Source: Tieghemostelium lacteum
Taxonomy: Eukaryota; Evosea; Eumycetozoa; Dictyosteliales; Raperosteliaceae
Assembly: GCA_001606155.1 (NCBI GenBank)
Contig: LODT01000037.1
Span: 1,426,001-1,490,000, forward strand
Length of the DNA: 64,000 nucleotides
Direction: 5' to 3'
Below are positions 45,038-49,778 of this stretch, in pieces (within the stretch, counting starts at the first letter, position 1; each line of letters opens with the position of its first letter). A program made the position numbers and the translations under genes. The notes below the pieces were generated by a model, which was given only the letters and a program-made list of their open reading frames with translations, did not search any database and was not told the DNA's origin.

Positions 45038-46791
45038 ATGAAATATTTAGATAGAATAGTACCATTGGTACTTTTAATATGCCTTTTATTTGGTCAATCT
45101 GAAGCACTTTATGAAGTAACACCAACAGATAGAGTAACTGCTACAAATATTCTAAATACTCATAGAGCCAATCTAACACCAAAACCATATGGTGGAATGA
45201 ACCAAGTCTCATGGAGTATGGATTTAGAAAATTTAATCTATCAACATACTGCAAATTGTGCAAGTAACCCATTACCAGCAACATATGCCAATGTTACAAC
45301 TCTAATCTATGCACAATATTACCCAAATGCCACTGCAGTATGTATACACACTCTATATATTTATATAATATCAAGTAAAAATTAAATTTAAATATTAATA
45401 TTTTTGATAAATAGTTCTTTGATTTAATCTTAAAATTCTATAAAGATCAGTATGATTACTTTACCAAGGGTTGCAAGAATACAGATTGTTACTATTATGA
45501 AGCTGCTATTTCTAATAGCACAACTCAATTTGCATGTGCTTATTCAAAGACTGATTGTACTGCTTTAAATTCTGCCTACTCTGGTGTTTACCAATATGCA
45601 TGTTTCTTTTCACCATACCCAAATTACAGTGATTACCCATACAAGAATCAAAATGTTATAAATTCCTTTTCAGCTGCTGATATTGATGTCATTTTGAATT
45701 ATCTCAATAATGAAAGAAATACAACTAAAGTAAAACCATCAGTTCCTCTATCAAAATTAGTTTGGAATCAGACTTTGGCAGATGGTGCTGCAGAGTATCT
45801 TGAAAAGTGTGATTATAGACAATCTGAAGATGCTGCATATGGATATGTACTAGAATCTACCATCAGTACCTATGCCCCAGGTTATGATTTGTATAATTCA
45901 TTTAATGGTGGTGTATACCCTGTAAAGTTATCTTACAGCTACTGGGATAAAACATGTTCACCTTATCTATGTGACCCTTACTTATACATGATAAAAAACA
46001 CTACTCAATCCGTTGGTTGTGCCAGAAAAACTTGTGTTCAAAATGGATATGCTTTTGTTCAGACTACCTGTAGATACTATCCCCCTGCACCAATTAGAAT
46101 TTACCCATTCCCAACTAATGAAGTAAGACCAGGACCACCACCAGCTCCAGAGCCTACTGGAAGTATTGATTGGAGACGTTTTAATAAAGTTTCTCCAGTA
46201 AAGAACCAAGGTGGTTGTGGAAGTTGTTGGGCATTCTCAGCTGCTGGTGCTATTGAATCTGCATTATTAATGAAATCAAATCAATCAGCTCCTGATACTT
46301 TTGATGTCTCCGAACAGGAATTTGTAAGTTGTACAGGTCCATCAAGTCAAGGGTGCAATGGAGGTTGGCCATTGGAAGCAATGAATAGAAAGAATGTTAC
46401 TGTTGAGTCTTATACCCCATACCAAGGTGAAACAGGGCAGTGTTCAGATCCATCTCCATACAGACCATTACTATCATGGTCAGGTGCCGAACAAGTAAAA
46501 CAAGATAAAAACACATTTGTACAAGCACTTAAAGATCACGGTCCATTCTCCATTTGTCTCTATGTAGGTGGTGATTTCTATTCCTATTCAGGTGGTGTCT
46601 ATGAGTACAAGAAAATGTCACCAGGTATCAATCATGCTGTTTTATTAGTTGGATATGATCTACCAGGTGACTATTGGATCATTAAAAACTCATGGGGTGA
46701 ATACTATGGTGAAGATGGTTATATCAACATCAAAGCTGATGTTGATGATTTTGGAAAGATTCTAGAGTATGGTTATAGAGTTATCGCATAA
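45038..46791 (+). CDS. Secreted CAP-CAP-papain (C1) fusion protease
   Basis: Two exons, 45038-45337 and 45415-46791, with a 77-nt intron (GTATGT donor, phase 0), giving 558 aa. A signal peptide (1-23) is followed by a CAP/SCP domain (about 33-175: ILNTHRANLTPKPYGGMN, later FACAYSKTDC and YACFFSPYPNY), a second CAP domain (about 190-320: ILNYLNNERN, VWNQTLADGAAEYLEKC, VGCARKTC, TTCRYYPP), a Pro-rich linker and a papain-like C1 domain (about 347-558). The protease has all key residues: Gln365, Cys371 (CGSCWAF), His507 (INHAVLLVGY) and Asn525 (IIKNSWGE). No I29 propeptide is present. Many N-glycosylation sites fit secretion or lysosomal sorting. I know of no standard family with two CAP domains in front of a C1 peptidase. 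Confidence 0.87.
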
Positions 46792-47043: not shown

Positions 47044-49070
47044 ATGAAGCTACGGTATACAGTACCGATTATAAATATACTATTATGTTTTGTATCTATC
47101 GTAGTTTCAAATTTTGCTCATTTACAAGCTATACAAACATCTGAACCAAATCATCAATATAGAATGTGGGCAGGTTTTATGATTGGTCATGGTGTAGCAA
47201 ATAATGATCAAGTATTTAATCCACCACCAGTAGCTCCAATTCCTCACATTACATGTGGTGGCGCACCAGGTGGAGCTAATGGTTTTATGGCTACATGTGA
47301 TGGTGAATTACATGATCTGACAAATGTTGGCCAATTTAGAGCTAATTTATTCGCTTTAACACCACCAATTCAATGTGTTATGGATATGTATTGTAAACAT
47401 AGATATCATTTTTACAATAATTTTCCTGGTAAACATTCTGAAAGAATAATGATGAGAATGGCAATGAGATCTCACAGAATGACCCTCTTACAAAACCCAA
47501 ATTATGTTTGTGGTCCTTCAGATCTTAACTTATACACTCGTTATCTTCCATGTAAAGATTGTACAGTAAGTATTTCACTTTAATTAAATATTAATATAAA
47601 TTTCTAATATTTGTCTGTGATAAAGTCATATTTTTTAAACTCATTTTCAAGAGAGTTTAATACCAATAATGGACATCAAAAATTAATTCCAATATATTTA
47701 GGGTATTCAAGACAATATAACAGAGATTATTCACATCATGTTCTATTGAGAAGATTAATTAATGAGCCACCATATCGTACAAGAGCAAATGTATATATTG
47801 TACCTGAAAGAGGTAATGACTTGACATGCCAACAAAACCAAAGAGACAGTATTGTTGCTGCTTTAACTGCAGTTAATCGATTTAATTTCAATATGCACGC
47901 CAACCACAATGGTGTTGCTGATCACCCTATTGTATTGATAATTGAACATGCCTATGCCAGATTCTTTATTAGTATTTATTATTCACCACCTCCACCTCCA
48001 CCTCTAAAAAATCAAAAAGGCTTTAATCGTCCAAACCAATTTAATTATAGAGGTCTAACTCAATGGTATGTTATTTTACTAATTTGTATTAAGAAAATAT
48101 AATCTAACATTTCATCTAAAAGGGATGTGTTATTAACAGCAATGGGTGCCCAACAAACCATTAGAAATGCTTTTAAAACTGCCCTCTTTAATGCAGCAAC
48201 TTTTGATTGGTATGTAATCAAAATACCACATTAAATGTATTATTTTAAATCTTTTCTAATATTAACATATATTTATTAGTCAAACAGCTCAAGTGCTTTC
48301 TTTACATGCTAATATTGTACCTGGTCATGGTTTTGAAAAATACTTTACAGCTATTGCACCATTTGGAAATTCTTTAGTAGCTACACCCAATGTAACTATT
48401 TATATTATTTATATAATAATTATCTATATTAATTAACAATTTTACGAAATAGGTTGGTGTGTCTGGTCAATGGTGTAACCATGGATATTGTGGTTTATTT
48501 TGTGATTTTCTTCAGGCTCCTGGTGGAGCATTTTATGGCGAGAATCCTGGGTTGGGACTGTTCCCTATACCAGGAATTATTCCACAATGTAACATTGCTC
48601 AAAACTTTATAATACCTTCAACATTATATGATATGCATGGACAGGTAATTACATCGCCTTACTTTAAAGCACACACCGGGTGTACAGGAGCAAGACTATC
48701 CAATGCTGCCTATAATAACTTTTTAATGCCTGCTGCAAATCATGCACATAATCTTCCACCTGCAAATATACTGTTTGGTGCTGTACATGTACACAATGTA
48801 CCACATCTACAAGCATTTCAGCCGGCAGCTTTACATAATGTACCACCTGCTGATGAAATGGATCTATCTGATATAAGTCAAGAGTTTGAGATTACTGATG
48901 AAGAATCTGAGTATATAAGTCAAGAAATTTTGATTGGCTCATCGGAGTCTGATGAAATTACTGAACAATTTGAAATTGATGAAGATGAAGTAGATAGTGA
49001 AGAACATACTGAATATGACTCTAATGACTATGAGTTCTGGGGACCTGGTTGTAATCAAAATGAGAATTAA
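47044..49070 (+). CDS. Secreted protein with zinc-deaminase-like HxE and PCxxC motifs
   Basis: Five exons, 47044-47565, 47626-48065, 48123-48209, 48280-48391 and 48453-49070, with introns of 57-70 nt, give about 592 aa. The acceptor of exon 2 is uncertain: 47626 or 47656, both in frame. Residues 1-22 are a signal peptide. Residues 131-133 read HSE, followed after 35 residues by LYTRYLPCKDC (Cys170, Cys173). This is the arrangement of the zinc-dependent cytidine/adenosine deaminase fold (HxE...PCxxC, preceded by a hydrophobic LYT strand). Hydrophobic strands follow (KLIPIYLGY, ANVYIVPE, PIVLIIEH), then more Cys motifs (WCNHGYCGLFC) and an acidic tail (about 510-592). It may be a secreted nucleic-acid or nucleotide deaminase, but I recognise no overall family, so function is a motif-level inference. 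Confidence 0.7.
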
Positions 49071-49154: not shown

Positions 49155-49778
49155 TTATATACACTTTGGAATCATTTTTAAATTTCTAGAGTTTTTAGCG
49201 ACAGTAATTTTGTTGGATTGACAAGGAGGACCAGACCATGAATCATAATTACAATATTCTACAGTTGGAACATCATTATCACAATAATATTGAGTTGAAT
49301 AAGTACCATAGTTATAGGAGAATGAGGTACCATTTTGGTAATATACTAAACCAACTTGATTAGAGTCACTATCATAGAAACCAAATATTATACTGTTGTA
49401 TGGGGCTTGTGGTAACTCTGTAGATTGTGTATACTGGAAATAGTAATTATTGGATTGATCTTCAAGAGTACAACCACCTTGTTTATAAACAGTGGAGTTC
49501 GAAGGATCACTGTGGAAACAACCATCATATTGACTAAATATATTAAACTGTGCTTCTTGCTCTTCCAATGGTTTAATTATAAAATTAAATGGTAGAACAC
49601 TATTGAGAAAATCATAGCATAGATTGAATATTCCACTATATATTATACCTTGAGGTTCTGATGTACATTTTGAATCTGAGAATACTTCAAAATTATTAAA
49701 AATTGTGCCTTCTTCACTTGAAGATAAAACCAATGATAGATTAATTATTACAAATAGAAACAATAATATTGATTTCAT
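49155..49778 (-). CDS. Small Cys-containing secreted protein, family not recognised
   Basis: Single exon, 207 aa, ATG at 49778. Signal peptide at 1-19. The mature part has about eight cysteines (SKCTSEPQG, FNLCYDF, DGCFHSD, GGCTLED, YYCDND, VEYCNYD, PPCQSN, IPKCI) and is rich in Tyr, Ser and Asn, like many dictyostelid secreted or cell-surface proteins. No membrane anchor or GPI signal is visible at the C-terminus. It converges with the deaminase-like gene (84 bases between stops). Confidence 0.75.
   Translation of the reverse strand: MKSILLFLFVIINLSLVLSSSEEGTIFNNFEVFSDSKCTSEPQGIIYSGIFNLCYDFLNSVLPFNFIIKPLEEQEAQFNIFSQYDGCFHSDPSNSTVYKQGGCTLEDQSNNYYFQYTQSTELPQAPYNSIIFGFYDSDSNQVGLVYYQNGTSFSYNYGTYSTQYYCDNDVPTVEYCNYDSWSGPPCQSNKITVAKNSRNLKMIPKCI

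Follow-up and report, generated by a model that had tools for sequence, protein, structure and literature searches.

Deaminases outside the cell and the gene in the window

Secreted deaminases of animals (SNADs) are, reportedly, known from work of 2018. The job that a base-editing enzyme may have outside the cell is described as an open question for the SNADs in PMC11004436. In zinc deaminases with an HxE…PCxxC motif, the histidine and the two cysteines hold the zinc, and a water molecule activated by zinc and glutamate attacks C4 of cytosine (PMC11004436). The division of the deaminases that comprises TadA, ADAR and AID/APOBEC is described in PMC3482391, and APOBEC-like proteins are stated to be present in lineages of metazoans, dictyostelids and algae (PMC6757416, citing Krishnan et al. 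2018 among others). Pfam holds a family named for the dictyostelid enzymes, PF18752 (DAAD, “Dictyosteliid AID/APOBEC-like Deaminase”; cut-off 25). When the literature was searched on dictyostelid DAAD and secreted deaminases, no experimental test of a dictyostelid DAAD appeared among the matches listed, judged by their titles and the openings of their abstracts.

The gene described here lies in a stretch of 64,000 nucleotides, the whole of which is called the window. Its parts, all on the forward strand, are as follows.

47044-49070, + strand: DAAD-like gene with five exons and four GT/AG introns, placed from the sequence alone
47044..47565, + strand: exon 1, with a signal-type N-terminus (residues 1 to about 23) and the early deaminase core with H131, E133, P169, C170 and C173
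47434..47562, + strand: HSE ... PCKDC zinc-deaminase motif, residues 131-173, with a gap of 35 residues from E133 to P169
47626..48065, + strand: exon 2, from the preferred acceptor (47656 is in frame too); its end splits a Trp codon (phase 2), like exon 1 of the paralogue on contig C24
48123..48209, + strand: exon 3, part of the W-x28-C stretch after the core; its end splits a Cys codon (phase 2), like exon 1 of five paralogues
48280..48391, + strand: exon 4 of the gene model
48453..49070, + strand: exon 5, with CNHGYCGLFC, then a stretch peculiar to this protein, an acidic tail and the stop codon TAA

A sequence-only reading of this DNA had placed HSE at residues 131-133 and PCKDC at residues 169-173, and both were confirmed in frame from the ATG at 47044. 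Where it saw a signal peptide, the N-terminus is of signal type by hydrophobicity, as 15 residues starting at residue 7 have a mean Kyte-Doolittle value of 2.79 in the 582-aa model, while the best stretch starting beyond residue 40 reaches 1.46. Intron 1 has two in-frame acceptors, and an exon 2 starting at 47626 yields a protein of 592 aa and one starting at 47656 a protein of 582 aa, both free of stops. We infer that exon 2 encodes the helix after PCxxC, a strand, the signature QYNRDYSH, a further helix and a further strand. The protein contains 16 cysteines, and its last 75 residues hold 28 D/E and 0 K/R; this acidic tail, encoded in exon 5, mostly has no equivalent in the aligned paralogues.

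Kinship with the DAAD family

Searching the genome (23.3 Mb, 43 contigs) with the DAAD profile resulted in 10 matches. Six genes lie above the cut-off, together with one fragment: five are matched over their full length (two genes on contig C37 and three in tandem on contig C40), and a sixth, on C24, is matched in two pieces. The window gene obtains 18.9 bits in this six-frame search and is, by DAAD score, the most divergent of the at least seven DAAD-type genes of this genome. A match on C19 (E 0.15) was taken for chance; its host protein looks like an AAA ATPase by eye. At the protein level, Pfam DAAD gives 25.3 bits for the 582-aa model, 23.2 bits for the 592-aa model and 27.0 bits for the core of the 582-aa model. 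Because the scores straddle the cut-off of 25, the window protein stands at the edge of the family. A genome search with the window protein itself retrieved its own locus and, elsewhere, a single C40 gene (E 0.065).

A profile built from the six paralogues scores the window protein at 16.9 bits (592 aa) and 13.9 bits (582 aa), and the best of 2000 shuffles at 6.4 and 4.5 bits, respectively. Aligned with this profile by hhalign, the window protein has a score of 38.2 (best of 200 shuffles 28.9) and a probability of 33-38%, and the profile match spans about 60-80 residues. The window protein is 22-25% identical to the six paralogues in the part encoded by exons 1-2, and 19-29% identical to them in the core. 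Regarding the acceptor of intron 1, we prefer 47626 to 47656, since it leaves an intron of 60 bases, provides the helix-like CTSYFLNSFSREF after PCxxC and has the higher paralogue-profile score, despite its lower Pfam DAAD score.

The profile and hhalign scores are modest evidence of kinship; the residues and the gene layout around them argue for it more strongly. No change is seen in HxE, LxL, PC(x2-3)CT or the Q, D and H of QxxxDxxH in 7/7 sequences (the window protein and 6/6 paralogues), which supports the earlier reading of a zinc deaminase with a complete His/Glu/Cys/Cys set and an LYT strand ahead of PCxxC. Both QxxxDxxH and the T after PCxxC, used here as a family criterion, were drawn from the alignment with the six paralogues. 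The window protein also differs from the paralogues within the motif, where the gap between Glu and Pro measures 35 residues versus 30-31 in the paralogues and 25-30 in the motif as quoted in PMC11004436.

As for the layout, the Trp and Cys codons which bound the stretch after the core are each split by a phase-2 intron in the window gene. The Trp intron has its counterpart, in column and phase, in the C24 gene, and the Cys intron in each of the five remaining paralogues; gene structure as a criterion for DAAD membership was set within this analysis. Trp and Cys are separated by 28 residues in the window protein and three paralogues and by 29 in two. Introns 1 and 4 of the window gene, placed from sequence like the others, have no counterpart in the six paralogues. 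Further downstream, CNHGYCGLFC of the window protein resembles the CxxGYxGxFC of the five C37 and C40 paralogues (one has CREKYTGSFC), and no such stretch is present in the aligned part of the C24 paralogue. Secreted proteins often carry EGF-like stretches of this kind, so the likeness is weak when taken alone.

Taken together, the window protein has the HxE, the LxL strand, PCxxCT, Q[WY][ND]xDxxH and the signal-type N-terminus in common with DAAD, and the C-terminal layout and intron positions with the DAAD members of its own genome. It differs by a longer stretch ahead of HSE and by a long C-terminal extension with the acidic tail. We regard it as very probably kin of DAAD and, most likely, as a divergent member of an already known deaminase family. 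The sequence-only reading had not recognised the rest of the protein and had called it the window's strongest candidate for an undescribed activity. Its account of the chemistry is plausible, but neither of these two points is supported, as the protein belongs beside a dictyostelid deaminase family that already has a name, AID/APOBEC-like, and the same genome contains six members that are easier to recognise. AID/APOBEC-like enzymes of dictyostelids are already catalogued (Pfam DAAD; PMC6757416), and the window gene would add a far-diverged relative, in which HxE, PCxxCT and QxxxDxxH are seen to persist although the sequence has otherwise mostly changed.

Several features of the paralogues were observed besides. 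The C40 array (G000:C40:730327-736350; loci L009, L011, L012 and L015) consists of three intact-looking DAAD genes in tandem and the adjoining fragment, which contains stops. The copies on C37 and C40 form a within-genome expansion of signal-bearing deaminases. In the C24 gene (L013 1042-1974), the motif reads PCYQFC, the zinc cysteines being separated by three residues rather than two, a spacing covered by the x2-4 that PMC11004436 quotes. The C-terminal part encoded by this gene is different too and, by eye, appears basic. In the five DAAD proteins of loci L008-L012, N-terminus and core are joined, at residues about 100-210, by a long linker of low complexity that contains basic clusters (KKRGR in L009); the window protein has no such linker.

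Likeness to APOBEC proteins and SNADs

The cores of the seven genes were scanned against Pfam for families other than DAAD. The best E-values were 2.2e-4 for NAD1 (3/7 cores), 4e-4 for APOBEC2 (3/7), 4.7e-4 for SNAD4 (2/7), 7e-4 for APOBEC_N (3/7), 0.0068 for XOO_2897 (4/7) and 0.014 for OTT_1508 (5/7). With the longer frames of the paralogues, such matches are below the curated cut-offs. For the window protein, no APOBEC or SNAD model was matched in Pfam by either gene model or by the core, and the sole Pfam match besides DAAD is PF00383 (E 0.05-0.23; core 0.052). NCBIfam gave no match for two paralogues or for exon 1 of the window gene.

A PDB search with the core profile listed APOBEC3G first, with an E-value of 0.014 that is below the usual significance. 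Its 11 rows comprise eight of APOBEC3G, one of dCMP deaminase and two of sulfhydryl oxidases. The window core alone had no match in PDB up to E 10, and the full paralogue profile found no deaminase, its matches being limited to a pair of WASH chains (E 1.2 and 1.9) aligned via the linker region. The paralogue cores and the core profile thus lean weakly to APOBEC families. With APOBEC3G and the AID/APOBEC proteins the window protein has the zinc motif and the order of elements in common, the PDB match coming from the family profile and not from the window protein alone. AID/APOBEC enzymes are intracellular according to PMC11004436, whereas the window protein has a signal-type N-terminus. The SNADs resemble it in signal peptide and HxE...PCxxC core, and 2/7 dictyostelid cores match SNAD4; they are, however, animal rather than amoebal proteins, and the window protein is without a SNAD match. 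The strand-helix-strand order after PCxxC, read by eye and from the weak paralogue model described below, would place the protein in the TadA/ADAR/AID/APOBEC division.

AlphaFold models were of low quality, with a pLDDT of 33.2 for the window protein (alignment of 7 rows) and of 37.6 for the paralogue (alignment of 6 rows), both too poor for zinc geometry. The input for the window protein was translated from 47044-48066 in frame 0, serine being put in for TAA, which inserted intron 1 right after PCKDCT; this insert was probably harmful to the model. A fold search with the paralogue model gave 16 APOBEC3/AID chains among the best 50 of 643 matches (best E 0.57), which we take as a hint only, since the first 11 rows are other folds. 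With the window model, no deaminase was present among the best 50 of 71 matches.

Searches for more distant relatives confirmed none in the sequences covered. The paralogue alignment found 22 pattern-matching stretches in genome contigs and 29 in viral contigs, and exon 1 of the window gene found one in viral contigs, none of them confirmed as a relative. Similarly, no relative was confirmed by tblastn of phages at E up to 1, with residues 1-262 of the 592-aa model as query.

Proposed activity and genomic surroundings

Signal-type N-termini, as judged by hydrophobicity, are present in 7/7 DAAD-type genes of the genome (the window gene and the six paralogues), and for this reason the dictyostelid branch, like the animal SNADs, seems to be secreted. 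The product of the window gene is probably a secreted or endolysosomal, zinc-dependent AID/APOBEC-like deaminase and a divergent relative of DAAD, its place outside the cytosol being suggested by the signal-type N-terminus. H131, C170 and C173 would hold the zinc and E133 would activate the zinc-bound water, which would then attack C4 of cytosine and convert it to uracil. The substrate could be single-stranded DNA or RNA, outside the cell or in the phagosome, derived from bacterial prey, parasites or dead kin. On balance, we favour a secreted enzyme that deaminates cytosine in single-stranded nucleic acid and serves defence or feeding, and we do so with some reservation; confidence is lower for any named biological role, the least certain step of this explanation.

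Instead of polynucleotides, a secreted deaminase of the same family might have as substrates the free nucleosides, nucleotides or bases that arise when prey is digested, and so serve salvage or nitrogen supply. A bacterivore digests much nucleic acid, and the second Pfam family of the window protein, PF00383, is the cytidine/deoxycytidylate deaminase region, albeit only at the E-values given above. However, the window protein matches DAAD better and has its signature, the cores of DAAD lean to the nucleic-acid-editing APOBEC families, and we consider action on free nucleosides unlikely. We also give only a small chance to the idea that the gene represents a separate, unnamed dictyostelid subfamily of secreted AID/APOBEC-like deaminases, at the limit of what Pfam DAAD can detect or beyond it, by which foreign nucleic acid would be mutated or inactivated, either extracellularly or within the phagosome. 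If true, such a subfamily would give a bacteria-eating social amoeba an extracellular equivalent of APOBEC defence.

It is quite improbable that the protein has kept fold and zinc and lost catalysis, and now has a structural or binding role in the extracellular space. The longer gap between HxE and PC, changed loops, the 16 cysteines and the strongly acidic tail would agree with such a change of function, as would the strong divergence from the paralogues. Nevertheless, all four catalytic residues are retained while most of the other sequence has changed, and this points to selection for catalysis.

A chance occurrence of HSE...PCKDC in an unrelated secreted protein is very improbable and was rejected: HxE-x(20-60)-PCxxC arises in 242/100,000 shuffles of the 582-aa protein, so that the bare motif is not very improbable and chance copies are to be expected in any proteome, but the DAAD profile scores, QxxxDxxH in register, the W-x28-C spacing and the two shared introns largely refute this explanation. 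The motif combined with Q[WY][ND]xDxxH, a pattern derived from an alignment that includes the window protein itself, occurred in 0/100,000 shuffles of the same protein. In the window DNA, a degenerate HSE-type pattern was matched 6 times versus 2.39 expected, which is uninformative by itself.

Culture and gene knockout are straightforward in Dictyostelium. With at least seven such genes in the present genome and a tractable Dictyostelium, these amoebae would be a practical place to study extracellular base editing.

Pfam matches among the neighbours of the window gene include FNIP repeats and a counting-factor-associated protein, which, with the DAAD match of the gene itself, point to a dictyostelid. 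Upstream, at 45038-46791, an ORF with a CAP domain is followed by an ORF for a papain-family protease, and the two possibly form one gene with an intron between them. Downstream, 49155-49778 on the minus strand encodes a counting-factor-associated protein of the CfaA/B/C family (PF11912, 3.5e-19).
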